Positions 2,787 through 33,291 of a DNA stretch of 34,827 nucleotides are shown piece after piece. A program made the translations under genes and the position numbers. How positions within the stretch are numbered: the stretch's first letter is position 1; every line of letters starts with the position of its first letter. Below the pieces are notes generated by a model that worked only from the letters and a program-made list of their open reading frames with translations, made no database searches and was not told where the DNA came from. Origin of the DNA: Clostridiales bacterium GWB2_37_7 (lineage in GTDB: Bacteria > Bacillota > Clostridia > Lutisporales > Lutisporaceae); contig MGOS01000083.1 in NCBI GenBank assembly GCA_001797185.1, positions 339 to 35,165 on the forward strand. Reading direction: 5' to 3'.

Positions 2787-2819
2787 AGTGAATTTGCAAT
2801 CTGCGAATTCACTTTTTTT
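2787..2819. terminator. Terminator between convergent chrA and prsW-like genes
   Basis: AGTGAATT...AATTCACT stem followed by T-run on the plus strand. Confidence 0.75.
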
Positions 2820-3507
2820 CTTCTTTGTCCCTAAAAGCAAAGGGAGAGCGTTCTGATAGTTCATCCACATTCCCCAAGCCTCTTTTCCATAGGTATAGCA
2901 TATAGGGTATAAACAGAAGCATAAGCTTAACACTTTGTGCAAAAAGAATAAAGTCATACACACCATGCAGCACAATGGGTATAAAAAATGCAAGCGTCAA
3001 ATAACGAATACTCTTCGATTGATTTGTAAATTTAGCCTTACCAAAGTAATAGCCCATAGCAACCCCAAACAAGGCATGAGCCGGCACTGCTGTAATCGAC
3101 CGTACAAAGGCTGTATGAAAGCCGCTTAGCAGCACATAGCCAATGTTCTCTGTAGTTGCGAAGCCCAGTGATATAAAAACACTATACACGATTCCGTCAT
3201 ACATCTCATTGAAATTCTTGTTTTTCCAAACAAAAATCCAAAATATGAAAAACTTAAAACCTTCCTCTACCAGACCTGCTACAATAAAAGCCGTATAACC
3301 GGCACCCAGCAAATCCTTCTCTGCCAAATCAAAAATATTCAACCTTAGCTCAAAAAATACCACCGGAGCAACTGCAAAGCTTCCCAACGCAAAAGCCTTA
3401 AAAAGCATTTGCCGTGGTTCTTTCTCATATTTATCTCGCAGATAAAAGTAGTATAACAAAGCTATAGATGGTGCAACGGCAGATATTAAAAGCAGCAATT
3501 CAATCAC
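2809..3507 (-). CDS. prsW: PrsW family intramembrane metalloprotease
   Basis: Multi-pass protein with GLVEEGFKFFIFW and later conserved H-containing helices (PAHALFGVAMGYYFG, VLHGVYDF). GTG start overlaps upstream stop (GTGA). Confidence 0.85.
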   Translation of the reverse strand: MIELLLLISAVAPSIALLYYFYLRDKYEKEPRQMLFKAFALGSFAVAPVVFFELRLNIFDLAEKDLLGAGYTAFIVAGLVEEGFKFFIFWIFVWKNKNFNEMYDGIVYSVFISLGFATTENIGYVLLSGFHTAFVRSITAVPAHALFGVAMGYYFGKAKFTNQSKSIRYLTLAFFIPIVLHGVYDFILFAQSVKLMLLFIPYMLYLWKRGLGNVDELSERSPFAFRDKEEKK

Positions 3508-5243
3508 TCCCCTGCCGAGTTCTCAATAATTTTTATTTGATTTTCAGTTAGATTATATATTTTATATATTTCCCTATCTATTGTTTGCAAAATACATTTT
3601 CGCTCTGTTGATTTTTGGGTCTTATATAGCAATTTTACCAACTCTTCAATTGCCTTGCTGCTTCCATTTAATTTTAGCTTTATTGTCAGTACTTTGTTGG
3701 GATAATAATCATAAAATTCAGGACTGATTTTTTTTGCAATGCACTTAAAATAAAATTCAATTACCTTTGAATTCAGCAATGCAGCTATATATTCTAAGGA
3801 ATAAATGCTTTTAAACTCATCCTTCAATACTAGACTATATACATCTGCACTGCAATACATGCCTTGCTTATCCACTGCAAATCTATTTGTGGCAGCTTTA
3901 TAAGGGTATACAAGCTTATCAGCCTCAAAGCATTGGGTATTTCTTCCCCACTGCAGCTGATACCATTGCCTTACCCCCCTTTGACATTCACGTCTCTGCA
4001 GCAGCTTTGTCTTATGGTTCTCAGCGAAAGCAATTGCTTTTGGGTAGTGTTCCGGCTCTTTTATCAGATTACTATAAATAAGAAATTTGTCTGAGGGCTT
4101 TATGAAAAACTTCTCTACATGACTATTCTTTATCCAAGGCTTTAAAAGCTCTTGCTCAATACCTAGCTGCATTGCTTGTTGTTCTGTCAAAACAAAAGCC
4201 TTATCGCAGCCTGTGATGATGCCTTGATAGCTGTCAAATACTTCTCTCACCTCATGAGTGGCATTTCTGTCTATGGTATCAAAGAGTTCTAAAGCTTCGG
4301 GCTTAAGCAATAACCAACCCTCTTTTCTTAGAACCCTTTTTTCAATATAAAAGGGCTCTGTCTTTTCTATTTGTAGATTTCCTGGGGCTTTGCCCCAGCT
4401 TTCTATTTTTCTTACCTTTACCATTTTATCGTCTTGCTGCTTTTTGATTGATATGATGCACACTGACACTCCCGCATCAGCAAAAACCTTGCAGTCGCCA
4501 AAATCCACAACTTCTTCCACATCAAACTCTGTGATGTAACTGCGAAGCTGCTCTGCAGAGGGACCTTCCATAAAGTATCTGGAGGTAATAAAGCTCAGTA
4601 TCCCCCCCGGTTTGAGCAGCTCCAAGCCTCTTTGAAAAAAGCAGTAGGATATGTCAGATTTATCTCTATAAACCTCCCTGTAATGTTGATAAAGCAGGGT
4701 TTTGTACTCATTCGGTACTGCTTTGTGCCCTATATAGGGTGGATTCCCTACAATAAAATCGAATTCATTATTCCAGAATTCATCAGCACCATTGCGATCT
4801 GCAAGTAAGCTGTCTGCGCAAATGATGTTGCTCTTGCAGCAGCAGCCTGCCGCTTTATCTAAGGAGTCCTTCACTAGTTTGACCGCTTCCGGATCAATAT
4901 CTGCACCCCAAATATTATTCTCCACTATAAACTTGCCTATTTCCTCATAACTAAGCTTGCCCTTCAATTGAGGATGCGCATAAATAACATCCTCCAGCTG
5001 CTTCTCATAGGCTTTCTTCAATACTTCAAAGGCTTTCAATAAAAAATATCCCGCACCACAGGATATGTCAAATATCTTAACAAAAGGATTTTTTACAATA
5101 TCCACAGAAGCCAAAGTATTCAGAATCATATATTCTACAACCTCTATGGGTGTATAGAAGACCCCCTTGGCTTTTCTGTCATCTATGCTCTTATTCTTTT
5201 CAAACTTGCTGCCTTCCTGATACAGCTTTTCGATTTGCTTCAT
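3504..5243 (-). CDS. Orphan Type IIG-like N6-adenine DNA methyltransferase with C-terminal target recognition region; CamA-like
   Basis: 579 aa; FYTPIEVVEYM, DISCGAGYFLL (SAM binding), IVGNPPYIGHK (catalytic NPPY), C-terminal QGIITGCDKAF, RRECQRGVRQWYQLQWGR, CSADVYS, YIAALLNSKV, YDYYPNK. No nuclease domain or restriction gene nearby. Confidence 0.9.
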   Translation of the reverse strand: MKQIEKLYQEGSKFEKNKSIDDRKAKGVFYTPIEVVEYMILNTLASVDIVKNPFVKIFDISCGAGYFLLKAFEVLKKAYEKQLEDVIYAHPQLKGKLSYEEIGKFIVENNIWGADIDPEAVKLVKDSLDKAAGCCCKSNIICADSLLADRNGADEFWNNEFDFIVGNPPYIGHKAVPNEYKTLLYQHYREVYRDKSDISYCFFQRGLELLKPGGILSFITSRYFMEGPSAEQLRSYITEFDVEEVVDFGDCKVFADAGVSVCIISIKKQQDDKMVKVRKIESWGKAPGNLQIEKTEPFYIEKRVLRKEGWLLLKPEALELFDTIDRNATHEVREVFDSYQGIITGCDKAFVLTEQQAMQLGIEQELLKPWIKNSHVEKFFIKPSDKFLIYSNLIKEPEHYPKAIAFAENHKTKLLQRRECQRGVRQWYQLQWGRNTQCFEADKLVYPYKAATNRFAVDKQGMYCSADVYSLVLKDEFKSIYSLEYIAALLNSKVIEFYFKCIAKKISPEFYDYYPNKVLTIKLKLNGSSKAIEELVKLLYKTQKSTERKCILQTIDREIYKIYNLTENQIKIIENSAGE

Positions 5244-5286
5244 AAAAATCCCCTTTACAGAAAAACTCGGCTATTGCCGAGTTTTA

Positions 5287-5556
5287 TTATTTATGTTTTC
5301 TTTTTTCTTCTAAGCTGATTACTTTACTGTCGATTATTTTACGCTTGCTTACATATTCGCCTATTTCAGTCTTCACCGCATTCCATATAAAAACGGCTAC
5401 AGCTGCATCATCCAACCAGCCCATAGCAAATATAAAATCAGGTACTATATCAATCGGCAATATGAAATATAAAAAGCTGCCTAAAATCAAACCTTTTTTA
5501 AGGAATGGAACCTCTTTGTCTTTTATGTATTCAAAAAAATATTTTATATCCTTCAA
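5287..5556 (-). CDS. YkvA/DUF1232 family small membrane protein
   Basis: YFILPIDIVPDFIFAMGWLDDAAVAVFIWN signature. Confidence 0.85.
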   Translation of the reverse strand: MKDIKYFFEYIKDKEVPFLKKGLILGSFLYFILPIDIVPDFIFAMGWLDDAAVAVFIWNAVKTEIGEYVSKRKIIDSKVISLEEKRKHK

Positions 5557-9025: not shown

Positions 9026-10390
9026 TTATACTCCACAGCACTTTTTATATTTCTTACCGCTTCCGCAGGGGCAAGGGTCATTACGTCCAACCTTTACCTC
9101 TGTACGCACATATGGTGTGTTAGTATAGCCATCTACTTCATCATAATCCTCGTCTCCATCAGATTCATCACGCTCAAACCTTTCGGGACAAATCTTCATA
9201 AACCTCTCAAACTTTTTCCTATATGAGTTTATCAGCTTATCTTCATTTTTTCGATTCAATACACTGTCAAAGAAGTCTTTCTTCATATTGTATAGTTCAG
9301 GGTATTTATTTTTAAGATTCTGTATATCTTTTCTATGAGAATTAATATTACAAACAGTATCCATCTCAAATCTAAATTGTTCGAATTCACAGTCAAGACA
9401 ATTCTTTCTACCACATTTATGCATTTCAAATTCAAGCATAGCTTTAAATAAATCATCTATAGCTTTCTCTTCTTCAAGCTGATGCATTTGTAGAATAATA
9501 ATTGAATCCTTGTCAATTTCTGCTTTGATTTTTTTTATTTCAACATCATCAGGAAGCAGTTTAAATGCAGTATTGATAGCAGCTGCTGATTCCTCTATCA
9601 AATTATAAAACTGAAGCTGCTTTGACAGATTCGCTAAGAACCATGCTACATTACCCTTCTCATCTTCATCCCTATTAGCAATGTCCTTCATTTCCTCTAG
9701 GTGCTTGCTCATGCCATCAAGGTCATGGGATTCTATATCAGCCCGAATGATATGATAATAAAGTTCAATATTGTCCCAGCCATTTCTGGTGCTTACCTCG
9801 ATACCTTGAAGTGCAATTTCCTTAGCTTTCGTGATTTGATTTGCACTTAAATAGCATTCTATATGTCCAAGCCATAATGAAATATTGTCCTCATCCAGCA
9901 GCAATGCTTGTTCATATCTTTCGGCAGCTTTTTTATGCCAGCCGCGCATCAGATAGGCATGTGCAAGCTTTCCTACAAAACCGGCATTATTTGGCTCATC
10001 TGCTGCAAGCTCTTCAAATATTTGTATTGCTTTGCCGCTGTTTTCATTCGCCATATATGCATCACCAAGTAGGATGTTGATTACAGAGAAGTCAGAATAA
10101 GTCTTACTTACCTTCTCCAAAAGCTTAATTGCCCTTTGGGCATCTCCGGCTTCCAGCTGCCTCCTACCTTCGTTAAAATATAACCTTGCCTCCACAGGCA
10201 TAGCATCGATTACATCAAATTGTTTACGCGTATTTTCATCAATCAGTATCTCATAAGCTTCTCTAATATTCATAAACTCATCGGGATATCTGTCAGGAGG
10301 ATATTTCCTGACAAGCTTAAAATAAGCTTTCTTAATATCGTCCTTTTTTGCTTCCTTCTGTATGTCCAGTATCTTATAATATTCTTTCAC
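9026..10390 (-). CDS. J-domain/TPR protein with C-terminal SEC-C motif
   Basis: N-term [39 protein letters not shown] (J-domain-like), TPR-like helices, C-term [21 protein letters not shown] (SEC-C). Confidence 0.9.
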
Positions 10391-10407
10391 TTACATTACC
10401 ACCTTTT

Positions 10408-10962
10408 TCAAAACATATCTCTGATAAGCCCACGCAATTTTTGAATAAAGCTTCCTTCTGTTGCAGAAATATAAAGCTTTGCTTTTTCGTTTGAATGATC
10501 AATAGACAAGGCTCTTTCCCATACTTTTATTGCTCTTTTCCTCTCGCCGGCAAGTATTTTTAAAACTCCAAAATAATTGAGAACTTCTACAGAAGAATCA
10601 AGACGAACTACAATTTCCCGCTCAAAAACATCAACCGCTTTTTTGTACTTCTTTTTAGAACACAATTCAGATACTAGAACAAAAAAAGGGGCTACTCCTT
10701 CAAAATCGTTTCTTAATTCTTTCAAGTAAGCCTGCGCAGGGTTCCTTTCACTCTGCTTATTCAAACTTTGAATCCAGCTGTATTCAGCCATTTTAAATCT
10801 TCCAAGCCTGTAAAAGCATAAGCCCAGAAGATTCCAAGCAGCGATGCTGTTATTGTCATAGGTAACAGCTTTTGAAAGATTTTCCACGGCGGACTTTATA
10901 TTTTTATCCATGGCATCTTGAAGTCCATTATTATAGTAGCGCAATGCAAGTGAATCAGTCAT
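10408..10962 (-). CDS. TPR-repeat protein
   Basis: AAWNLLGLCFYRLGRFKMAEYSWIQSL and ALSIDHSNEKAKLYI TPR-type repeats; start overlaps hsp70 stop. Confidence 0.8.
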   Translation of the reverse strand: MTDSLALRYYNNGLQDAMDKNIKSAVENLSKAVTYDNNSIAAWNLLGLCFYRLGRFKMAEYSWIQSLNKQSERNPAQAYLKELRNDFEGVAPFFVLVSELCSKKKYKKAVDVFEREIVVRLDSSVEVLNYFGVLKILAGERKRAIKVWERALSIDHSNEKAKLYISATEGSFIQKLRGLIRDMF

Positions 10963-12682
10963 TTTCCTCCTCCGTTATATCGTAGATAATGTCTGCAAGC
11001 TCATCCTTCAACTTGTCCAATATATCTCTATCTTTGCCCAATACCAGAGCTTCCTTTATCTTCATAATAAGACTTTCCAAATCTATTTCATATGGACCTG
11101 CTTCTCTATTTTCTAAAATCCTATTTGCCTTTTTAATTATAGCTCGATACCTTCTGGCTTCGGATATATTTTCCCATCCTTCCAAATCTACTTCCGCAGC
11201 TATTCCAACTCCGGTTGTCTCAACTGTTATATTTGCCTTTTTCCCTGTACTTACTATTGATGCTTCTACTTGAAGTATCCCATTGATATCATAGGAGAAC
11301 ATCACCTTGATTTTCTCTTGAAATGCCGGAGCAGGCGGAACACCCTTAAGATGAAATTTACCAAGCAGATTGTTCATCGAAGCCTTTTTGCATTCTCCTT
11401 GATATACTTCAATGGCAACTTCTGACTGATCATTCTGTGCTGTTCCGTATATTTTCTCCCTTACAACCGGGATGGTTACATTTCTAGGAATTATAATATC
11501 ATAGACATCCGCTACCGAAAATCCACCGATATAGTCAAGTATTGAGGTTCCTAATGTATAGGGACAAACATCGGTAATCATTATATCCACTTCACTGGAA
11601 AACTCGTTATTGATAATTCCTGCTTGAATTGAGGCACCTCTTACGACTGCCAAATCAGGATCCACCAGCTGCTGAGGCTCTTTACCCAATACCTTTTCAA
11701 CAAACCTTCTTACATATGGAATTCGTGTGGATCCCCCTACAAGAAGTATAAGATCTATATCCGAGGGTTTAATGCCCGAATCCTTCAGTGCAATACCTAT
11801 TTGTTCTTCTGTAGATTCTATCATGTGTTTGATTAATCCTTCAAAGATTTCCCTGTTTACTGTTTCTTCCAGAGACACGGGAGTTCCTTTTACTTCAGCA
11901 AAAAAAGGAAGTATAATATTGTATTCGTTTTCAGTGCTTAACGCAATCTTACACGTCTCAACCGCTTCCTTCAATCTCATCGCAGCTCTTTTGTCAGATG
12001 AAACATCTATGCCGTATGTCTGATTGAATCTATTCAGAAGATAGTCAATAAGGCTTTGATCAAAATCCTTACCGCCAAGCTTGTTATTTCCGCTGCTTGC
12101 CTTCACATCAAGTATACCTTCAAACATTTCAAGTATTGTTACATCCAGTGTGCCCCCACCTAGGTCGTAAATAAGTATATTTTTACATTCGCGCATATGC
12201 TCAATACCATAATCTAGAGAGGCGGCAGTAGGTTCATTTATTATTCTTTCAACCTTTAATCCCGCAAGCCTTCCTGCTTCCACAGTCGCCTTTCTCTGCT
12301 CATCGGAAAAATATGCTGGTACTGTAATAACGGCTCTTTCTATTTTTTCATTCAAATGCTTCTCAGCACACGCAATTAGATATTTTAAGATATAACTCGA
12401 AATCTTCTCTGGTGTATATTCTTTTCCGCCCATTGTCACCTTTGTGCCTGAGCCCATGAGTCTCTTAATCTCAATAACAGTGTCATTTGGTTTTAATAAA
12501 AGCTGCTCCTTTGCTTCTCTACCGACAATTATATCACCATTATCATCAATACTAACCACTGAAGGAGTTATGTACTCTCCATTTTGGTTTGGTATTACCC
12601 GGGGCTTTCCATTTTCTAAAACCGCAATTTCCGAGGTTGATGTTCCAAGGTCTATACCCACAATCTTACTCATCTTCGCCAC
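10955..12682 (-). CDS. Hsp70 family chaperone (DnaK-like, divergent)
   Basis: GIDLGTSTSEIAVLENG, ITVPAYFSDEQRKAT, INEPTAASLDYG, IYDLGGGTLDVTI, LVGGSTRIPYV; 575 aa, ending shortly after a brief lid. Confidence 0.95.
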   Translation of the reverse strand: MAKMSKIVGIDLGTSTSEIAVLENGKPRVIPNQNGEYITPSVVSIDDNGDIIVGREAKEQLLLKPNDTVIEIKRLMGSGTKVTMGGKEYTPEKISSYILKYLIACAEKHLNEKIERAVITVPAYFSDEQRKATVEAGRLAGLKVERIINEPTAASLDYGIEHMRECKNILIYDLGGGTLDVTILEMFEGILDVKASSGNNKLGGKDFDQSLIDYLLNRFNQTYGIDVSSDKRAAMRLKEAVETCKIALSTENEYNIILPFFAEVKGTPVSLEETVNREIFEGLIKHMIESTEEQIGIALKDSGIKPSDIDLILLVGGSTRIPYVRRFVEKVLGKEPQQLVDPDLAVVRGASIQAGIINNEFSSEVDIMITDVCPYTLGTSILDYIGGFSVADVYDIIIPRNVTIPVVREKIYGTAQNDQSEVAIEVYQGECKKASMNNLLGKFHLKGVPPAPAFQEKIKVMFSYDINGILQVEASIVSTGKKANITVETTGVGIAAEVDLEGWENISEARRYRAIIKKANRILENREAGPYEIDLESLIMKIKEALVLGKDRDILDKLKDELADIIYDITEEEND

Positions 12683-13256
12683 TATCCTTATATTTCATAT
12701 TTACAACTACCTGAGCTTTTCTTAATACAACGGAATTATATTTATATCCGCATTTCAAGACTTCTAATATGTATCCCTCAGGAAATTCTTCCTCATATCT
12801 TGTTTGCACTGCAATATTTAATTGAGCGTTAAAAAACACGTGCTGTTCATCGATTCGCATAATGCCACAAATCATTAAGCTGCTTGATATGTTTTTCCAC
12901 AAAATTCTCATTTGCTCTGCCCTACTGTCGGTATCATGCTTTAAAGAATATCTGTACATATCTTCAAGCTGGTCAAGAATCGAAATTAATCCCTTTACAA
13001 GGGCTGTTTTATCTTCTTCAAATACTACTTCTGACTTTTTCAACTCACTGATAAGTTTTTCCTTTTCTTTTTCTTCATCAAGAATAGTAAGAATTTCCTC
13101 AATCTGCATATTCGTCTTGCTTTGCTCTTTTCCAATACGCTTTAATGTCGCGTTAAGAGACTCAATTATTATCACTGTTTCGTTTTGTATATCTATAAAA
13201 GTCTTATCAATCTCCATAAAGTCGAATTTCTCAAGCTCTTTTGTAAAATCAATCAT
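12666..13256 (-). CDS. GrpE-like nucleotide exchange factor
   Basis: C-terminal region EEFPEGYILEVLKCGYKYNSVVLRKAQVVVNMK resembles the GrpE beta-wing; overlaps hsp70 start. Confidence 0.75.
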   Translation of the reverse strand: MIDFTKELEKFDFMEIDKTFIDIQNETVIIIESLNATLKRIGKEQSKTNMQIEEILTILDEEKEKEKLISELKKSEVVFEEDKTALVKGLISILDQLEDMYRYSLKHDTDSRAEQMRILWKNISSSLMICGIMRIDEQHVFFNAQLNIAVQTRYEEEFPEGYILEVLKCGYKYNSVVLRKAQVVVNMKYKDSGEDE

Positions 13257-13432: not shown

Positions 13433-13747
13433 TTAGATTTGCTTGTTGTATATTGTTATACCAATTCTATCGATATGCTCTTTAATATCCTTATGCTGCA
13501 AGGAACTATAATCTACCACATCCACCATATATGGTATTGGAAGCTTTTCATTCATATAAGCACTTGCATTCATAGCCAAACTCGCGTTGCAATTACTGCC
13601 TTTTATAGCTAAGTCGATGTCACTTCCATTTTTATAATTGCCTTTTGCTCTACTTCCAAAAATTACCACTTCCTCTATCTCAGCATATTGTACAAAGGCT
13701 TCCAATATCAGATTAAATGATTTTTCCGATATTCCAAATTGATTCAT
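13433..13747 (-). CDS. mntA: MNT-type minimal nucleotidyltransferase (MntA-like antitoxin)
   Basis: VVIFGSRAKGNYKNGSDIDLAIKG: GSx10DxD signature. Confidence 0.85.
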   Translation of the reverse strand: MNQFGISEKSFNLILEAFVQYAEIEEVVIFGSRAKGNYKNGSDIDLAIKGSNCNASLAMNASAYMNEKLPIPYMVDVVDYSSLQHKDIKEHIDRIGITIYNKQI

Positions 13748-14142
13748 ATTTCCACACCCAGTTTTGTAATGACTTGTTTCAATGCCGGATAAAAATTATT
13801 TACAATAAGTTTATATGCCAATTCTGCATTTGTTTCATTATATGTATGTGCCATCAGATTTCTTTTATCAAGCATGTCCATCCATATATCCCCGTTATCA
13901 ATAATCTCATATTTAAAAGCTTCTTTGATTGTATCTCTTGGAAATTTCACTAAGACCTCTTTCTCCTCCAAGTAGTCTTTAAGCGTCTTCCATGCCAATT
14001 CAAATGTAAATTCATATATTTGAATAACTCCAGCTTTTTCCAAATCGGAAAGATTTGTTTTCAATACAGCTTCTTCCAAATGCTTGAAGGCTTTTTCATA
14101 ATTTTGAAAGCGTTGTTTCCACCTTATGTCACGCTCATTCAT
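13744..14142 (-). CDS. hepT: HEPN domain protein, HI0074/HepT-like toxin
   Basis: TFELAWKTLKDYLEE...RNLMAHTYNE; the RX4HXY motif (RNLMAHTY) is intact; overlaps the MNT gene. Confidence 0.85.
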   Translation of the reverse strand: MNERDIRWKQRFQNYEKAFKHLEEAVLKTNLSDLEKAGVIQIYEFTFELAWKTLKDYLEEKEVLVKFPRDTIKEAFKYEIIDNGDIWMDMLDKRNLMAHTYNETNAELAYKLIVNNFYPALKQVITKLGVEI

Positions 14143-21286: not shown

Positions 21287-22540
21287 TTGAATATACCACA
21301 TGACACACTGGACTTAAATAAATTTATATCTTCTATATCCTTAGCCCTGGATTTGGCAGAATCCTGCGTTTTCAGGGATTGTAGACTTAATGCCGAGAAC
21401 GTTAGAGCTTTTTCACAATTGGATGTTAAAAACCACAATTTTGCTTCTCATTCAAAGAAAACTGCTTTAATTTCTTTATATTTATCAAATAGCCTTGGAT
21501 ATCAAGGAGAGAAATTAAACAACCTATACATAGCTGCTTTTTTACATGATATTGGCGCTGTTGATGCCTTAAGCGTTTGTCACACTGACTTAAATTTCAT
21601 TTACGAGCATTGTGAGTTTGGTTCAAATATAATAAAAAAGCTTCCTATTGACAATGACATTTCCTCATTTATTAGGTTTCATCATGAGAGTTATGATGGC
21701 AGCGGTCCTTCAGGGCTCTGTGCCAATGAAATCCCACTTGAAGCTCAAATAATACATATCGCTGACTTTTTTGAGATTATATACAATAGGGACATTGGTC
21801 CCATACAACGAGAACTCATATTAAACTGGTTTAGGTCTCAGAAAGCTAAAATGTTTGACCCGTATCTGGTAGATATCCTCTTTGATATTACAGAAAAAGA
21901 AAGATTTTGGCTGGATCTGGAAAACATGGACCGGGACTATGGCGTTTTAGAGAGAATAAGTCCCAAGATGCATACACCTATGAATTTGACTCAGCTAGCA
22001 AATATTTCCTCTGTATTTGCAGCTATTATTGATAAAAAGAGTACATTTACCCATGAGCATTCCTTCAGGCTATCCCGCAAAACAGGCAAAGTTGCTGCGT
22101 CGTTTGAGCTTGATCAGCAAAATATAGATAAAATTAAAATAGCAGGTCTGCTTCATGATATAGGTAAGCTTGCTGTTCCCAATGCCATACTAGATAAACC
22201 CGGCAAGTTGACAAAGGATGAATATTCCATCATAAAGTCCCATGCATATTATACTAAACTAGTATTGGACAAAATCGATGGTATTCAGGATATATGCGAT
22301 TGGGCTTCCAACCATCACGAGACACTAAGAGGAACCGGCTATCCTGAAGCCTTTGATGCAGGCAGATTGTCCATTGAGTCAAGAATATTAGCCGTATGTG
22401 ATATTTATCAAGCCCTGACAGAAGACAGGCCATATCGTGCAGGTATGCCCAAAGACAAGTCCTTTGGTATACTAGATAATATGGTCAGTATAGGAAATAT
22501 TGACGGTCAAGTAGTCAGAATACTAAAGGATATAGTATGA
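21287..22540 (+). CDS. Tandem HD/HD-GYP domain protein
   Basis: FLHDIGAVDA + HHESYDGSGPSGL and LLHDIGKLAVP + HHETLRGTGYPE. Second TTG (21287) fits the GGGGG RBS better than 21272. Confidence 0.88.
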   Translation: MNIPHDTLDLNKFISSISLALDLAESCVFRDCRLNAENVRAFSQLDVKNHNFASHSKKTALISLYLSNSLGYQGEKLNNLYIAAFLHDIGAVDALSVCHTDLNFIYEHCEFGSNIIKKLPIDNDISSFIRFHHESYDGSGPSGLCANEIPLEAQIIHIADFFEIIYNRDIGPIQRELILNWFRSQKAKMFDPYLVDILFDITEKERFWLDLENMDRDYGVLERISPKMHTPMNLTQLANISSVFAAIIDKKSTFTHEHSFRLSRKTGKVAASFELDQQNIDKIKIAGLLHDIGKLAVPNAILDKPGKLTKDEYSIIKSHAYYTKLVLDKIDGIQDICDWASNHHETLRGTGYPEAFDAGRLSIESRILAVCDIYQALTEDRPYRAGMPKDKSFGILDNMVSIGNIDGQVVRILKDIV

Positions 22541-22552
22541 TTAAAGCAGCAG

Positions 22553-22602
22553 CTTAGGCATTGCCTGTTCTGCTGCTTTTTTTTCATGTCTTCTATGACA
22601 TT
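22553..22602. repeat. Left copy of ~50-bp imperfect direct repeat matching the MocR gene 3' end
   Basis: CTTAGGCATTGCCTGTTCTGCTGCTTTTTTTTCATGTCTTCTATGACATT versus 33292..33340; about 42/50 identical by eye. Confidence 0.7.
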
Positions 22603-22621
22603 TTTTAAGTCCCTAAGTGCT

Positions 22622-23034
22622 ATATCAAAGTTGACCTTCCTGACGCCGGTACTATCTGCCAGTGCGACTACATTTCCATGGGCATCATGGATATAGAAAT
22701 ATGTTGCAGGGGTTGCTCCTGTATAATCTATCATCTGTAGAAGCACACCGTTTATATCTCTTACAAAGAAATATTTAACCTTGTTTGTTTCATCTGTGAT
22801 ATATGCAAGATCATCACCGGTGTAGTAATAATTCTCTGTTTTGCTAACTGTAATTTTTTTGCTTCTAAGCCCTAGCCAGTTATATTCATAAGTGGCAATT
22901 ACAGTAGCTCCGCTTTCTACTCTTATCAGTTGGTTTTTATCATTATATACAAAAGTATTTCCTCCCGAAGTAACCATGTTTCCATAGTCGTCATGGGTAT
23001 AACTTACATTGCCGGTTCTGCTAAGAAGCTCATT
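22622..23034 (-). pseudogene. Truncated RHS core fragment (third copy)
   Basis: Translated GNTFVYNDKNQLIRVESGATVIATYEYNWLGLRSKK...YYTGDDLAYITDE...RDINGVLLQMIDYTGATPATYFYIHDAHGNVVALADSTGVRKV, a repeat of the main RHS gene without 5' or 3' ends. Confidence 0.85.
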
Positions 23035-23280: not shown

Positions 23281-23640
23281 TCACTTTTTTAATCGAAAGT
23301 AAACAATAGCAAATAATATTGCTGCAAGTATTAATGCAATACTCCCAACATATAATGCGTTCTTTCTTTCTGGTTCTTTTCTATGCTTCCAATTGTAAAT
23401 AATCAGTAAATAAAAAGCAACTGCAAGCCCAAAATAAGCGGGTAACATAATAATAGAAGTAAAATTTGCATCTATAACTTTTAAGTCTTCATCTAAAATA
23501 CGTAATATAATATTATAACAACTTGAACTTGAAATAATAATATATATTTTTCTTAGAAGTTTTTCTCCTTTAAATCTAAATATTGAATAGTAAAATAACC
23601 CTATCGATAAAATCAGTACAATATATTTATTAAATATCAT
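23281..23640 (-). CDS. Small multi-pass membrane protein; candidate immunity protein for displaced RHS tip
   Basis: 119 aa with several TM segments; ATG overlaps the TAA of the RHS cassette (TAATG). Confidence 0.65.
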   Translation of the reverse strand: MIFNKYIVLILSIGLFYYSIFRFKGEKLLRKIYIIISSSSCYNIILRILDEDLKVIDANFTSIIMLPAYFGLAVAFYLLIIYNWKHRKEPERKNALYVGSIALILAAILFAIVYFRLKK

Positions 23641-25035
23641 TAGTCAATCATTCCTTTTTTAAATTCTGATGCACCATAAGAAATTAGTGAAGTCGCTGCA
23701 ATGCTTACAATTATACCAGTGAGTGTTGCCGGTATAAAAACAACTGCCGCTAATGATAATAAAGTTGCACCAACGGTGATTAGCATCGCGGTATTCCTCT
23801 GCTCTGAAGTATATGCCGTGTTTACAGAATCTTCATACAAACTAGTTGCTCCATATAATAATGTCGTAAACGGCCCGAAAAATTTACCGAATTTCTTAAG
23901 TGCTCCTGCAGGGTTTAAATACTTACTTGCTTTACTCCATCGAGCTACTAATTTTACAGATTTCTCAACTTTACTTGAACTTCTGGAAATTGGACTTTTT
24001 AATATCTGTAGCCCTTTACGTTCCAAGGCATATTCGGTATATGAAAACAAAGAATCAATTGATGTTGCAGTTTTTAATATTTCTTCACCATAACTATTAG
24101 AAACTCCTCTTCTAACATTAGCTTTTTCTGCACCTTCAATATAATCTTCATAAGGAGATGTACTATACAGATCGCCTATCGGCTCCCATAACCCACTTGG
24201 ATCAACAAAATTTACGGGATTATTATTGCAATACATATATCTATTCTTTGTTAATATAACATCCTCAGTTAAGAACCTGCCTAAGTACTGAGAATAATAC
24301 CTATTCTTCAGATAATAAAACTCTGTCTCGGGGTCAAACTGATAGCCGCTGTACCTAAATGGATTTGCATCTCTTAGAAGCTCTCCGTTGCCTGTAAACA
24401 CGTTTGTCTCGGGAGTGTTTATCAGCAGTCCCCAAGCGTCAAACTCATAATTTACCTTTCTGACACCTGTACTGTCTGCCAGTGCAACTATATTTCCATG
24501 GGCATCTCGGATATAGAAATATGTTGCAGGGGTTGCTCCTGTATAGTCTATCATCTGTAGAAGCACGCCATTTATATCTCTTACAAAGAAATATTTAACC
24601 TTGTTTGTTTCATCTGTGATATATGCAAGATCATCACCGGTGTAGTAATAATTCTCTGTTTTGCTAACTGTAATTTTTTTGCTTCTAAGCCCTAGCCAGT
24701 TATATTCATAAGTGGCAATTACAGTAGCTCCGCTTTCTACTCTTATCAGTTGGTTTTTATCGTTATAAACAAAGGTATTTCCTCCTGCAGTAACCATATT
24801 TCCATAGAAGTCATGGGTATAATTCACGTTGCCGGTTCTGCTAAGAAGCTCATTGAATGTATTGTACTGGTAGCTTATAGTTCCTACTCCTGTGCCTTCT
24901 ACTATTCTCTCTGTCCGGTTCCCCATGATGTCGTATTTATATGTTATTTTTCTGCTGGGGGTTTGTGCGGTAAGGCTGTCAAAATAGCTTTCTGTCTTCA
25001 GTTGGTTTATGGAATCATATGTGTATTCTACCCTT
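23640..25035 (-). CDS. Displaced (orphan) RHS C-terminal cassette with hydrophobic toxin-like tip
   Basis: RHS core homologous to the main RHS gene from VEYTYDSINQLK to NNPVNFVDPSGL, then a different C-terminus ending in LLYGATSLYEDSV...AMLITVGATLLSLAAVVFIPATLTGIIVSIAATSL. No credible native start: the ORF-track ATG at 25103 lies in unrelated upstream DNA. Confidence 0.8.
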
Positions 25036-25077
25036 AGAAAGATTATTTTAATTTCTTGCTTACGTATCAATACAAAG

Positions 25078-25110
25078 GGATGCAATAAAGTTATAACCTT
25101 CATTGCATCC
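25078..25110. repeat. 9-bp inverted repeat GGATGCAAT / ATTGCATCC at the upstream junction of the RHS cassette
   Basis: Direct reading; the track's ATG for the 487-aa ORF falls inside it. Confidence 0.75.
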
Positions 25111-26672: not shown

Positions 26673-29600
26673 CTATTCTTTAAATATGGGTATTGGATTA
26701 TAGTAAACCTGTTCCTTTTGCTCTATTGCATATTCCATAATTCCTCTTATGATTGCAACTGTATCCCTAGGGTCATCTCCATAAGATAAATTATTCATAA
26801 ATGCTCTATCTGATGTTCTTGAATATATCTGATAGAGGCCTGCCGCTCCAATGAGTTCAATCGGAGTAAACCCTGATGCTGATCCAACATAACCATAATG
26901 TATATTCCCTACATCCTGAGCAGTAATAGCTATGCCCTTATAGGTCATTTTCCTAAAAGCCCATCCTGGTTGTATCTTTAGATCCCATGGACCTCCAGTT
27001 TTTACTTGCTTATACCACCATATGGCTACATCAAAATCATTTTTAGTTTCAGCATACTTTCTAGCTATCTTACTGTTCTCTTTCATAATAACATCCAATC
27101 TATTCGTCACATCAATAACCGGATACATACTAGCAAGAGATTGCCTTCTCATAGTTTTAGTTTCTGGTTCTCCCCCTGCGTTATATAGTGGTCTTAGCCC
27201 ACTATGATCAACATAATTCACCGGATTATTATTACAATACACGTACCTATTCTTAGATATAACCGGATCCTCAGTCAAGAACCTACCTAAGTACTGAGAA
27301 TAGTATCTGCCCTTCAAATAATAAAACTCTGTCTCAGCGTCAAACTGATAGCCGCTGTATCTGAATGGATTTGCATCTATTAGTGGCTCTCCATTGCCTG
27401 TAAACACATTATTCTCTGGAATATTTATCAGCAATCCCCAGGCATCGTATTCAAAGTTGACCTTTCTGACACCTGTGCTGTCTGCCAATGCAACTACATT
27501 TCCATGGGCATCCTGGATATAGAAATATGTTGCAGGGGTTGCTCCTGTATAGTCTATCATCTGTAGAAGCACGCCGTTTATATCCCGTACAAAGAAATAT
27601 TTGACCTTATTTGCTTCATCTGTTATATATGCCAGATCATCACCGGTATAATAATAATTCTCTGTCTTGCCTACTGTGATTTTCTTGCTTCTCAGTCCTT
27701 GCCAGTTATATTCATAAGTGGCGATTACCGTAGCTCCGCTTTCTACTCTTATCAGCTGGTTTTTATCATTATAAACAAAGGTATTTCCTCCTGCAGTAAC
27801 CATATTTCCATAGTAGTCATGTGTATAACTCACATTGCCGGTTCTGCTTAGCAGCTCATTGAAGGCATTGTACTGGTAGCTTGTAGTTCCCGCTCCCGTG
27901 CCTTCTACTATTCTCTCTGTACGGTTCCCCATGATGTCGTATACATATGTGATTCTTCTGCTGGGTGTTTGTGCGGTAAGGCTGTCAAAATAGCTTTCTG
28001 CCTTAAGTTGATTTATGGAATCATATGTGTATTCTACCCTTTTTGAGGTACGATTATTTATTTCCTTTGTTCTGTTTCCGTTTTCATCAAATTCATAGCT
28101 GTATTCTGCTATGCGGGAGCCATATCTGTTTTCAACTTTGATACGTGAAATCCTGTTGCCGCTGTCGTACTCCCTGTAGGTTACGTAAAACATATTGCTG
28201 TCTGCTACATAGCTTTTCTTTAGTCTGGATTCTTCATCTATCATGAATGCAGCAGCTGTTCCATTTGGCCCTTTTATGTCGGTATTATTACCGGCATAAT
28301 CATATGTGTACTCTATATGGGGAGCAGCTGCATTAATAGGTGATGCCGATAAAACCGAGTATGTTATTTCAGTTATCTGACTGTTGGCGTTATATTTATA
28401 ATCTTCATCATTGGATGCCGATACAGTCCTCCATACCTGTTTTTTCTCAACTCTGTTTAGGACATCATATAAAAAGCTGTGATTCTTTACTCCGTTTTTT
28501 TGCACTTCTTTGACATTGCTGTTTTCATCAAAGGAATATGACCATGCTGTGCCGTCCATTCCAAGTGTTTCAGTCTTTAGCCTATCCAGACTGTCATAGG
28601 TATAGCTTAGAGATTTGCCGTTTGGAAAGCTTACTTTTGTCAGGTTTGCATTCTTGTCATAGTCAAAGTATGTTGGCCGCCAGTTTGCGTCTGATATTGA
28701 TTTCGGCAGATTAAGCTCATTATAGTTTATCTTGACTGTTGTATTGTAATATATATAGCTGCTTGTTGCACTGTCAAAGACAAGATTATCAATCTGGTCC
28801 AGATTTTCTGTCTTATAAAAGTTATATATGGTTTGAAGCTTTTTTGTACCCTGGCCTGTTTCAATTGGCGGATATTCAATCGTTTTTACTTTGTCCAGCT
28901 TATCATAGGTAAAGGTATATTTGTTCAGCTTTGCATCGGTTAGCTCCAGCTTATTGCCACGGTTGTCATTAAGCATTGTTATGCTATTGCCTGCCTGGTT
29001 TGTTATTTTATTTACATAGTTGGCTGTAGATTCATAAAAGTATCTGATTGTTTCATTGCCCTCAGACAGTCTTACCGCATCAATATATATAGCTCCGTAG
29101 GTAGCTCCTGCAGAGCCTATGGAAACTTGTATATACTTTGCTACGGTTGCCGGATTACCTGTATATGCTTTGGCTATAGCTTGTGCTTCATCATAGGTTA
29201 TGGTTTCTACAAATCTATTCCAATCCCTGGTGCCTTTAATTATTTTAGAAGCTTTTTGTCCCGCGAAGCTTCCGCTTGCATCCAATATATCAAATTTAAC
29301 TAAAGCACCGCTTCCTGTTACATTTTCAGTTCTTATAGCGGCACTTAAGGTATAGCTTGTATTTTGTTTTATAGGCTCTTTTATGTTGTTTACCAGCAGC
29401 ACCCAATCCGAGGTGTTTGATAATTTCAACATCCTGTCTCCGCTGAAAGGGATGATTAGTTTTTTATCATTGCCTATTGTTATGATTTCAGCTGCAATCC
29501 AATTAAGTGTATAGGTTGTTCCAGTGGTACTCTTTAATATCTGCCATTCATCAAAGTCTGCATTGCCGAATTGTTCAAATTCCAAGCTGCCATTTTGTAC

Positions 29601-32600
29601 AAGGTTGTATTGGCTCATTACAGCATTGGAGGCTGCATTTATCCTCACCTTTATATCATCAAACCATACTGTAAGGTTTGGCTGGTTTTCCACTTTGCAA
29701 TATATAGTAACACTATTGAATTTTCTGATAGCTGCTCCTGAGGATTCTATATACTGCCAGCTGCCATCAGAGGTTATTGGGAAGTCTTTTACATAGGTAA
29801 CCTGTGGTGTGCCGTCTAGATTAAATTGCAGCAGAAGCTGGCATTTTCCTCCGGGTGTTGAAGTGCCTGTGGTTCTTCCCCAGCCGGAAAAATGCATTGA
29901 TAAGCCTACTCCACCCTCTTGGTTTATATTCTGTGATAAAAGCTTATTGGCTGTACTGCCTTTAACCATAAAGGATCTTTTACCGGATCTCACATATATA
30001 GTATCCAGTTTATCGTTTGCATCCATTGAAGCTGATAGCCACCAGCCGTCAGGCAAATTATTATTGTTAATGTCTGATTCAAAGCCCTCATTATACAGTA
30101 GGTTTTGTTCATTTAATACAGGCTGGCTTTCAAACTGGACATTGTCAAACCAAGCCTCTGCCGGTGTAGTATCAGTACCTCCGCTTAAATTAAGTGTAAC
30201 CCTTGCATATTGTGCATCGGAGGGTGCATTGACTCTGGCACCCTTTCTTGTAAAGATCAAGGAGTTTGCAACCGAGGGTGTTAATTCAGCAGATAAGGGT
30301 ATGGTTGAAAGTATATTTATGTCTTTGTACCAGCGTACCTCCAGAGTTGCTCCCCCAAAGCTGTAGCCCGCATTTGATGTCCTTATATATGCCGATACAT
30401 TATACTTGAAATTTGGGGTAACATTTATATAGTCGCCTATAATAATTGTGCGTTGAGCTGCAAGGTCACCCTTTGCTATAAGCTTCATGGATTGGTTTCC
30501 ATTTACTTTTTGCGTGGTATCCAATAAAACATTTGCCGGGTCACCCTGGTATATATTCCAATCAAGCAGCGTACCTGTTTTGCCGATGTTTTCAAAGCCT
30601 GAATCCTGAACCAGGTTCCCTGCCAAGCCGATGGGATCTGATTGATACTGCATATTGCCATAGCTGTCATGATCCATTGAAACAGTGGAGAATATTGGTG
30701 TTGTAGTCATCAGTAGATTTCTATTAGCAGGGTCGTGTTCATTTACTGTAGTAAGCTGTCCAAAATCCACAATTTGTTCCGGGTCTTCATTTATGTCAAA
30801 TTTAAAGATAGTACTGAAGCCCTGTTTATTTATTACCCGCCTCATATTTCCATTTACATACTCAATAACAGTTTGATATTTTTCTCTTTCACTTTCTGGA
30901 AGATTCGACCACTTAGGCTCTATTATACCTACCAGATCCTGTTCTTCACTCCACTCATATAGATATTTTCGCTCTACTAGCACAGGAGCTTCTTCTGTAC
31001 CGGTGTTTTCAAATAATGTGAGTTCTGCAACCCTGCCCATAGCATCAGTTTTGTACTGAGTTTTATATACTTTAGGGTCTGTAACGGTTGTTATTACGGT
31101 ATTGTCAGTATTTAATGTATAACTGAATCTTGTTACCAGAAATTGCTGCTGCCCGTTAATAGTAAGCTTTTTGGTGATTGTTTCTATTCTTAGCCCACCC
31201 TCAGTACTATAGGTATAGCCGTAGCTTGTTGAATTTCCTTCTGCATCAACTATGCTTTGTAAGTTTTGATATTGATCATAGGTATAGGTAACCTCTTTTA
31301 ATACTGCTCCTGAGACATCCAGTATTCTTACCTTGCTTAGCAGACTGCCGGTATATACATAATCGACAGTTGGTATATCAGGTCCTGTGATACTCTCAAG
31401 CTTTTCTCCTGCATAGTTGAAGGTTATTGTCCTACCGGATGGATCAACAATGCTTCCTAGCTTCTCAGCATCAAGATATCTCATATCAGTGGTATTGTTG
31501 TTGGTATCAAGGATTTTATCAAGCCTGCCATCAGCTGTAAAGTAATATTTGACACCGGATTGTTCTTTAATGACTATTACATCATTTTCGACCAACATTG
31601 TGGAGTTTACCCCTGCCGGAGATCTGTAAATACCTTCAGGGCCTTTTGTAAATACCTTGACTGTTCCGTCTGCATCTGTAAAATTTACTATTTCTTTGTT
31701 GAAATATGAAGTAACCTTCATCATTAGGTTGTTAATCCAGTTTAAACCTAATACAGATGTACTGCTGGTGCGGGAATTGTATGTTCTTGTGACTACAATC
31801 GGTACCCCTCTGCCCGGAAGCGTTACGTCTACATCACTTATTACAAGGTTTCCATTATATACATTGACATTGCCATGGAAGCCCCAATAAGGCTCGGCAC
31901 CTAAGCCGTCAATTTTATAGTTTATTTTAAGTGAGGGAATTTTTCGCAGGGGATCTGTTTCGTTTGATGAATAGAAGCTTAGAGGAGCTGCTTGCTCGTT
32001 TGTTGGAGACAGCATAAAGCCGTAGTTTGGAGTTGTGCCATTATACCATTCTTTAACCGTTTGTGTTATATTAAAATCCCATACAGAAGCAGGTCCTAAA
32101 CTGAAATTCTGCAATACGGGATTAATAGTATCTATGCTTGGAGGATTATTCCAAGTAGCAGTAGTTACAGACCAGCTGGAGGTAATCCTGTATACATTTA
32201 CTGAGTTACTGACCTGGGGCTGCCACATGGTAAGCTGCATATATGTATCATTAATTCTGGCTCCTGGAGGCAATGGAGGTAAATATCTGAACCATATAAG
32301 AGCTTTGGCTGTTTTATAGTAATCGTCTATCTTCCCTGCATGTATGTTAACATAATTATAATATACAGCATTTGGTGTTCCGCTTGCAATAAATGTGTCG
32401 ATTGTACTTTCGGCGTCAGTATAATTTATGGTTGCTGTGACCGCCGGGTCGAGAATTAATGGATAGCTTGCGTTTTTTAGAAATTCCGCATCTATGATAT
32501 ATACTAATCGTTCTTGTGTTGTATCTCTTACAATATCCATACTGACTTTATCAGTTGTATTATTATTTGCATCGGATGCGAAAGGTTTTCGGAAGTAAAA

Positions 32601-33179
32601 TAACCTTTCTCCCGTCCGGTTATCAATGCCATTTATACTTCCATCACTTAGCTTCTCCAGATTTATGCCCTGGTAGTCCAATAAAAAGCTGAAGCTATTA
32701 GTGGTCGGATAAGTATTGAAAATTATGTTTTCCTTAACTGTGTCCCCTTCAACTATATACTGTAAATCTAATCCTTGTCTTACACCTTGATAATATATGC
32801 TTTGGCCTTTAACGTTTCCTAATTGGGTAAAACGGTCAACAGGTGTGAATGCGACCCAATGAGTATCGTCAGTAGCAAAATATACAAGCTTATCATTTAT
32901 GTTGTTTTTTGCAAACCGTACAGTAAAAGCATTAGCTGAATTTTCATAGTCATAGCCAACAGCCTTACTGGGCACTAAGCTATTATCAATATCCTCTAAG
33001 TTACCGCTTCTGTTTATGAAATTCAATTGTTTGGCTGATACCTCGAGTGTAAAGCTTCCATCTGGATTAATATATGTCTTTGAGAAAGATGTTTTTCTGG
33101 TCTTTAGTTCTGTTCTCTCAATCGCCGGCTTTGGCAGTACATTTTTGGGCCTTTCAATCTGAAACTTCTCAACTGGCAT
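26673..33179 (-). CDS. RHS-repeat polymorphic toxin with DNRLRE-like N-terminal region, jelly-roll domains and Ntox44-like C-terminal tip
   Basis: TATWNNPPSIDTINPV (DNRLRE-like), GRGVPIVVTRTYNSR (DUF6531-like), many RHS/YD repeats, RHS core ending NNPVNYVDHSGL, tip FDVAIWWYKQVKTGGPWDLKIQPGW...IHYGYVGSASGF...SYGDDPRDTVAIIRGIMEYA. ATG at 33179 with GGGGAG RBS preferred over TTG 33194. Confidence 0.93.
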   Translation of the reverse strand: MPVEKFQIERPKNVLPKPAIERTELKTRKTSFSKTYINPDGSFTLEVSAKQLNFINRSGNLEDIDNSLVPSKAVGYDYENSANAFTVRFAKNNINDKLVYFATDDTHWVAFTPVDRFTQLGNVKGQSIYYQGVRQGLDLQYIVEGDTVKENIIFNTYPTTNSFSFLLDYQGINLEKLSDGSINGIDNRTGERLFYFRKPFASDANNNTTDKVSMDIVRDTTQERLVYIIDAEFLKNASYPLILDPAVTATINYTDAESTIDTFIASGTPNAVYYNYVNIHAGKIDDYYKTAKALIWFRYLPPLPPGARINDTYMQLTMWQPQVSNSVNVYRITSSWSVTTATWNNPPSIDTINPVLQNFSLGPASVWDFNITQTVKEWYNGTTPNYGFMLSPTNEQAAPLSFYSSNETDPLRKIPSLKINYKIDGLGAEPYWGFHGNVNVYNGNLVISDVDVTLPGRGVPIVVTRTYNSRTSSTSVLGLNWINNLMMKVTSYFNKEIVNFTDADGTVKVFTKGPEGIYRSPAGVNSTMLVENDVIVIKEQSGVKYYFTADGRLDKILDTNNNTTDMRYLDAEKLGSIVDPSGRTITFNYAGEKLESITGPDIPTVDYVYTGSLLSKVRILDVSGAVLKEVTYTYDQYQNLQSIVDAEGNSTSYGYTYSTEGGLRIETITKKLTINGQQQFLVTRFSYTLNTDNTVITTVTDPKVYKTQYKTDAMGRVAELTLFENTGTEEAPVLVERKYLYEWSEEQDLVGIIEPKWSNLPESEREKYQTVIEYVNGNMRRVINKQGFSTIFKFDINEDPEQIVDFGQLTTVNEHDPANRNLLMTTTPIFSTVSMDHDSYGNMQYQSDPIGLAGNLVQDSGFENIGKTGTLLDWNIYQGDPANVLLDTTQKVNGNQSMKLIAKGDLAAQRTIIIGDYINVTPNFKYNVSAYIRTSNAGYSFGGATLEVRWYKDINILSTIPLSAELTPSVANSLIFTRKGARVNAPSDAQYARVTLNLSGGTDTTPAEAWFDNVQFESQPVLNEQNLLYNEGFESDINNNNLPDGWWLSASMDANDKLDTIYVRSGKRSFMVKGSTANKLLSQNINQEGGVGLSMHFSGWGRTTGTSTPGGKCQLLLQFNLDGTPQVTYVKDFPITSDGSWQYIESSGAAIRKFNSVTIYCKVENQPNLTVWFDDIKVRINAASNAVMSQYNLVQNGSLEFEQFGNADFDEWQILKSTTGTTYTLNWIAAEIITIGNDKKLIIPFSGDRMLKLSNTSDWVLLVNNIKEPIKQNTSYTLSAAIRTENVTGSGALVKFDILDASGSFAGQKASKIIKGTRDWNRFVETITYDEAQAIAKAYTGNPATVAKYIQVSIGSAGATYGAIYIDAVRLSEGNETIRYFYESTANYVNKITNQAGNSITMLNDNRGNKLELTDAKLNKYTFTYDKLDKVKTIEYPPIETGQGTKKLQTIYNFYKTENLDQIDNLVFDSATSSYIYYNTTVKINYNELNLPKSISDANWRPTYFDYDKNANLTKVSFPNGKSLSYTYDSLDRLKTETLGMDGTAWSYSFDENSNVKEVQKNGVKNHSFLYDVLNRVEKKQVWRTVSASNDEDYKYNANSQITEITYSVLSASPINAAAPHIEYTYDYAGNNTDIKGPNGTAAAFMIDEESRLKKSYVADSNMFYVTYREYDSGNRISRIKVENRYGSRIAEYSYEFDENGNRTKEINNRTSKRVEYTYDSINQLKAESYFDSLTAQTPSRRITYVYDIMGNRTERIVEGTGAGTTSYQYNAFNELLSRTGNVSYTHDYYGNMVTAGGNTFVYNDKNQLIRVESGATVIATYEYNWQGLRSKKITVGKTENYYYTGDDLAYITDEANKVKYFFVRDINGVLLQMIDYTGATPATYFYIQDAHGNVVALADSTGVRKVNFEYDAWGLLINIPENNVFTGNGEPLIDANPFRYSGYQFDAETEFYYLKGRYYSQYLGRFLTEDPVISKNRYVYCNNNPVNYVDHSGLRPLYNAGGEPETKTMRRQSLASMYPVIDVTNRLDVIMKENSKIARKYAETKNDFDVAIWWYKQVKTGGPWDLKIQPGWAFRKMTYKGIAITAQDVGNIHYGYVGSASGFTPIELIGAAGLYQIYSRTSDRAFMNNLSYGDDPRDTVAIIRGIMEYAIEQKEQVYYNPIPIFKE

Positions 33180-33291
33180 TAAACTACTCCCCAATAATAT
33201 ATTTACATAAGTTGTTACATAACAAAATATGCTTACATTATTTGGGTTATTCGATTAATTTGACAGATTACTTTGCCTTTTTCAACGGTTT

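Follow-up and report, generated by a model that had tools for sequence, protein, structure and literature searches.

An orphan adenine methyltransferase of the CamA family in a Clostridiales genome: recognition residues, predicted target and distribution in Clostridia

The window analyzed here, a stretch of 34,827 nucleotides from Clostridiales bacterium GWB2_37_7, carries on its minus strand a gene for a CamA-type DNA adenine methyltransferase, framed downstream by prsW and upstream by a DUF1232 gene and ABC transporter genes (Table 1). A preliminary description of the sequence had given the correct coordinates for this gene and no strand; the plus-strand reading was rejected because it is full of stops. 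The ATG on the minus strand is preceded by a good ribosome-binding site, AAAGGGGA. The adjacency to prsW recurs in nearly all relatives of the window clade (g1-g5, see below), and the two genes are probably co-expressed. A terminator-like hairpin lies about 20 nt ahead of the methyltransferase start and leaves no room for a promoter behind it. It is also found before the gene in two congeners (L054, L055), where changes in the stem are compensated and pairing is kept, so that read-through or attenuation may control expression.

Table 1. Features of the methyltransferase locus (window coordinates)
Feature	Position	Strand	Remarks
prsW intramembrane protease gene	2809..3507	-	directly downstream of the methyltransferase gene, 4-bp overlap; NCBIfam NF033739
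CamA-type N6-adenine DNA methyltransferase gene	3504..5243	-	single unbroken 579-aa ORF, ATG at 5243, stop ends at 3504; no nuclease domain
Target recognition domain	3507..4304	-	about residues 314-579; alignment to CamA 8cxz
Catalytic motif IV NPPY	4734..4745	-	residues 167-170, in GNPPYIGHK
SAM-binding motif I DISCGAGYF	5043..5069	-	residues 59-67; Ser61 and Ala64 at the positions of CamA Ser62/Cys65
Terminator-like hairpin with T run	5262..5285	-	just upstream of the methyltransferase ribosome-binding site
DUF1232 gene	5287..5556	-	upstream, same strand as the methyltransferase gene

The window, in which no tRNA genes were found, holds several further clusters on the minus strand. GrpE-like, Hsp70, TPR-like and DnaJ-TPR-SEC-C genes (9026-13256) look like an extra chaperone set. 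At 13433-14142, a nucleotidyltransferase gene overlaps by 4 bp with a gene for a nucleotidyltransferase-substrate-binding-like protein, a pair of genes typical for MNT/HEPN toxin-antitoxin modules. The stretch 26673-33194 encodes an RHS-repeat protein of 2173 aa that carries Ntox44 as its C-terminal domain, and after this gene two shorter open reading frames (23640-25103 and 22507-22977) repeat the RHS core with other C-terminal ends, in the manner of displaced RHS tips.

The methyltransferase has the domain order of a gamma-class adenine core, with motif I (DISCGAGYFL, starting at D59) followed by NPPY and a C-terminal recognition domain. His173 and Lys174, right after NPPY, correspond to His171 and Lys172 of CamA, which contact the minor groove (PMC8187626). 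Pfam assigned an Eco57I/N6_Mtase core and a TaqI_C specificity domain and found no nuclease domain in the protein. Both core motifs named in the preliminary description, with NPPY at the residues claimed, and every C-terminal sequence block quoted there are present. A type IIG restriction-modification enzyme was rejected on the grounds of protein length and the missing fused nuclease domain. BREX PglX, a protein of about 1200 aa with pgl/brx partners, was likewise rejected, since the NCBIfam PglX score is far under the cut-off; brx-like neighbors were absent among the window genes examined.

When the protein was compared with all PDB chains by phmmer, CamA from Clostridioides difficile was the top match (E 8.3e-116, residues 12-540), and the next different protein, M.BseCI, followed at E 4.2e-23. 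BLASTP aligned the window enzyme and CamA with 39% identity over 541 columns. The AlphaFold model (pLDDT 90.6, pTM 0.83) superimposes on the CamA-DNA-SAH complex 7lt5 with TM scores of 0.85/0.87, as compared with 0.74-0.78 for M.BseCI. CamA is the best solved match both by sequence and by predicted fold, the identity is not restricted to the motifs, and the residues that read the bases are kept, which bears out the likeness to CamA stated in the preliminary description. M.BseCI, which belongs to a restriction-modification system and recognizes ATCGAT, shares the gamma-class fold but only 20% identity, and its target is a different one. CamA (CAAAAA m6A, PDB 7lt5/7lni) and the window enzyme, on the other hand, agree in length, domain order, a motif I with Ser, NPPY, all base contacts bar one and the lack of a linked nuclease. 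They differ in that Phe replaces Ile517 in the window enzyme, in that its host belongs to a different order of Clostridia, and in that the window gene adjoins prsW whereas camA of C. difficile and the family gene in C. difficile-like genomes lie beside ptsH-ptsI. It is well supported that the window gene encodes a CamA-type orphan adenine methyltransferase and thus a member of an already known family.

The CamA side chains that touch the bases of CAAAAA have been listed (PMC8187626). The CamA residues used here were taken from an alignment with the PDB sequence (8cxz), and their numbering was verified against that list. In the window enzyme the corresponding positions of the recognition domain are Q340, I343, R418, Q431, W432, R434, Y448, K449, S465, A466, S507, F510 and Y514, and 12 of these 13 contacts are identical to CamA (Gln346, Ile349, Arg425, Gln438, Trp439, Arg441, Tyr455, Lys456, Ser472, Ala473, Ser514 and Tyr521), as are His171 and Lys172 of the core. 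The exception is F510 at the position of CamA Ile517, a residue that touches the rearranged A5:T6 pair and is Leu in most relatives. This exchange could give the window enzyme a motif with a different 3' end. Over 52 family members, conservation reaches 95% or more at 10 of the 13 contacts of the recognition domain, as opposed to 37 of 217 columns domain-wide (P 1.3e-6, a guide only, as it takes columns as independent), and the two most variable contacts are CamA positions 514 and 517. Six outgroup adenine methyltransferases have the NPP core in common with the family and do not keep the contact set. A 1102-aa protein, possibly type IIG-like (L108, G013:C23), is placed close to the family, with a branch that is very long, and keeps the contacts Arg425, Trp439 and Arg441 and not Gln346 or Ile349.

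Information on the target motif beyond CamA comes from Acetobacterium woodii, whose enzyme Awo_c14460 produces CAAAAAR m6A when expressed alone (PMC6700114). One of our family members, L044 in genome G102, is Awo_c14460 by three fingerprints: the genome contains 304 copies of TAAGNNNNNTCC, exactly the count published for A. woodii DSM 1030 (PMC6700114); L044 lies about 17 kb off the position of Awo_c14460 that we interpolated by our own arithmetic from the HsdM genes (PMC6700114); and it is 48.6% identical to the Eubacterium limosum-like enzyme L037, as compared with a published 48.92% between Awo_c14460 and the E. limosum enzyme (PMC9503626). By sequence and recognition residues both CAAAAAR enzymes belong to the same family as the window enzyme, and no linked nuclease was seen for either. 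Awo_c14460 differs from the window enzyme in that identity is about 34%, in its approximately 100 additional residues, in Gly514/Leu517, in its location next to rarA/mgsA and a gene for a PreP-type protease, and in its host, which gave no SpoIIE match. Methylation of CAAAAAR has also been reported for C. ljungdahlii, E. limosum and others, and for CP6013_1459 of Clostridium pasteurianum, a lone enzyme that shares the core motif, for which the assignment was by prediction (PMC5027557) and whose sequence was not identified among the loci compared. In the part of the literature covered, the CAAAAAR enzymes are compared by motif, and no sequence tie to CamA was found. CamA (CAAAAA) and Awo_c14460 (CAAAAAR) bracket the window enzyme, and since the window enzyme is nearer to CamA than the A. 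woodii enzyme is, we predict CAAAAA, perhaps with a 3' purine (CAAAAAR), as its target.

CamA has been called specific to C. difficile (PMC8187626, PMC13395437) and has also been stated to be rare elsewhere, and the preliminary description had noted that enzymes of this type have been regarded as largely confined to that species. This view does not hold. Homologues are present at E 1e-60 or better in 18 of the 22 genomes of the window's order (one family), among them all seven of good quality. Of the other Clostridia sampled, 32 of 375 have one. At E 1e-80, a phylum-wide sample with an unstated number of non-Clostridia yielded two matches, both within Clostridia, and a scan of genome contigs with a single-protein query, which picks close relatives only, reached only Clostridium aestuarii. 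The spread of homologues means that the published rarity and specificity of CamA need revision, at least as far as the protein family and its recognition residues are concerned, and the window enzyme is less exceptional than originally assumed. In the phylogenetic tree, the window clade (g1-g5) is sister to a clade that comprises CamA, its f55 relatives, f43 and g6-g7 (support 94/98), while the A. woodii group lies further out. As g6-g7 belong to the window's own order, this order holds two clades; a single clade for the whole order was rejected (AU p 0.0013), and at least one transfer, or duplication with differential loss, must therefore have occurred. Given the sister position, the two clades and a neighborhood that is not common with C. 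difficile, "CamA family member" appears the safer designation for the window gene than "ortholog of camA".

Alternatively, the enzyme might supply the modification activity of a restriction-modification system or of some other kind of defense. Such a role might be considered because fold relatives include BREX PglX and type IIG enzymes and because one Clostridium has a restriction-methylase fusion that methylates a CAAAAA-like motif. We judge it highly improbable. The window methyltransferase is an orphan at its locus: as originally noted, the 579-aa protein lacks a nuclease domain and no restriction gene adjoins it (its neighbors being the prsW, DUF1232 and ABC transporter genes), and in none of the lineages is a nuclease gene found among the annotated conserved neighbors of the loci examined. 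Neighborhoods are instead stable, lineage-specific and of a housekeeping type, for example rarA/mgsA with genes for a PreP-type protease and a D-Ala-D-Ala carboxypeptidase in the A. woodii group, and searches of plasmids and phages returned no close relatives, the best matches having 26-30% identity, on which basis a mobile origin was rejected. This pattern fits a gene that is inherited vertically on the chromosome better than it does a mobile defense gene. Another reading accepts the CamA family and holds that specificity has drifted at the edges of the site (CRAAAAR, or relaxed positions 5-6), such that partly different sites are marked. The exchange of Ile517 for Phe, the variability of positions 514 and 517 within the family and the methylation of CRAAAAR in C. 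carboxidivorans and C. cadaveris (PMC10745947, PMC8928765) point in this direction, but the window enzyme retains the residues that contact positions 1-4, as well as Lys456 and Tyr521, which form the wedge, and CRAAAAR methylation in C. carboxidivorans is due to a restriction-methylase fusion (3726 bp) and not to a stand-alone CamA-like enzyme. Drift of this kind is improbable in our view, albeit less so than a role in defense.

The link to sporulation deserves closer consideration. In C. difficile, methylation of one site in the promoter of spoIIE increases the activation of sigma-F (PMC13395437), and it could be argued that the family, including the window enzyme, is a strict clostridial sporulation regulator that exists to tune this step. 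Consistent with this idea, spoIIE is present in 21 of the 22 genomes of the window's order, the window genome included, and the regions ahead of spoIIE in these genomes show a mild enrichment of CAAAAA (1.11 vs 0.65 per 300 nt, P 0.016, uncorrected and from related genomes). Furthermore, the CamA-family gene of Clostridiaceae, a group identified through L002 (Clostridium aestuarii), lies upstream of spoIIAA-spoIIAB-sigF on the same strand in all 11 testable loci (L002, L073-L077, L079, L080, L082-L084) and is directly adjacent in seven; spoVAC and spoVAD lie beyond sigF in most of them. However, this linkage is absent in the window and is suggestive only, as it represents one inherited arrangement and not independent events. 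Unlike in C. difficile, no CAAAAA occurs in the 300 nt ahead of the spoIIE start assigned in the window genome (L086; a simple rule served to pick this start), and the site is also missing from most spoIIE promoters of Clostridiaceae. The best-studied regulatory link of CamA is thus not common to the window genome, and wiring through the spoIIE promoter, absent there and not clear elsewhere, was rejected. SpoIIE is encoded by 20 of the 32 carriers outside the window's order, as compared with 276 of the 375 sampled Clostridia overall; the 12 carriers without a SpoIIE match are no rarer than in this background, so the CamA family is no sporulation marker. In addition, the effect of CamA on fitness in mice is largely independent of sporulation (PMC13395437). 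Taken together, a strict sporulation regulator appears unlikely, though it is the alternative that we would take most seriously, and the window promoter without a site, along with a family distribution that does not follow sporulation, leads us to infer epigenetic regulation with lineage-specific targets rather than a fixed spoIIE switch.

Very probably, then, the product of the window gene is a gamma-class orphan enzyme of the CamA family, a DNA adenine N6-methyltransferase that sets a CAAAAA(R) mark for epigenetic regulation at the level of promoters. In vivo, the C-terminal domain would read the asymmetric sequence CAAAAA, possibly with a preference for a 3' purine, and the last adenine of the site would be squeezed out and methylated with SAM. 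Since the draft assembly of the window genome (92% completeness) contains 6,419 CAAAAA sites, the resulting mark would be strand-specific and present at up to about 6,400 chromosomal positions. Its role would most likely be epigenetic regulation of transcription at promoters, as with CamA, because no nuclease partner adjoins the gene.

Part of the interest of this finding is that the CamA family, and very likely its motif as well, is spread through Clostridia. CamA could be one branch of an ancient clostridial system, a chromosomal orphan that marks CAAAAA in many families, is core in the window's little-known order and is tied to sigF in Clostridiaceae, and as such a general developmental or physiological switch and no peculiarity of C. 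difficile; we put this forward tentatively, as a possibility that falls somewhat short of being probable. CamA is promoted as a target for drugs specific to C. difficile, a 2026 paper being the latest example. If the recognition residues are invariant across Clostridia, inhibitors of CamA may lack selectivity, and what is learned about this enzyme can be tested in species that are harmless and easy to work with, A. woodii being one. Finally, the sigF-linked copies of Clostridiaceae offer an immediate setting in which to examine whether the sigma-F switch is affected by methylation in species other than C. difficile.
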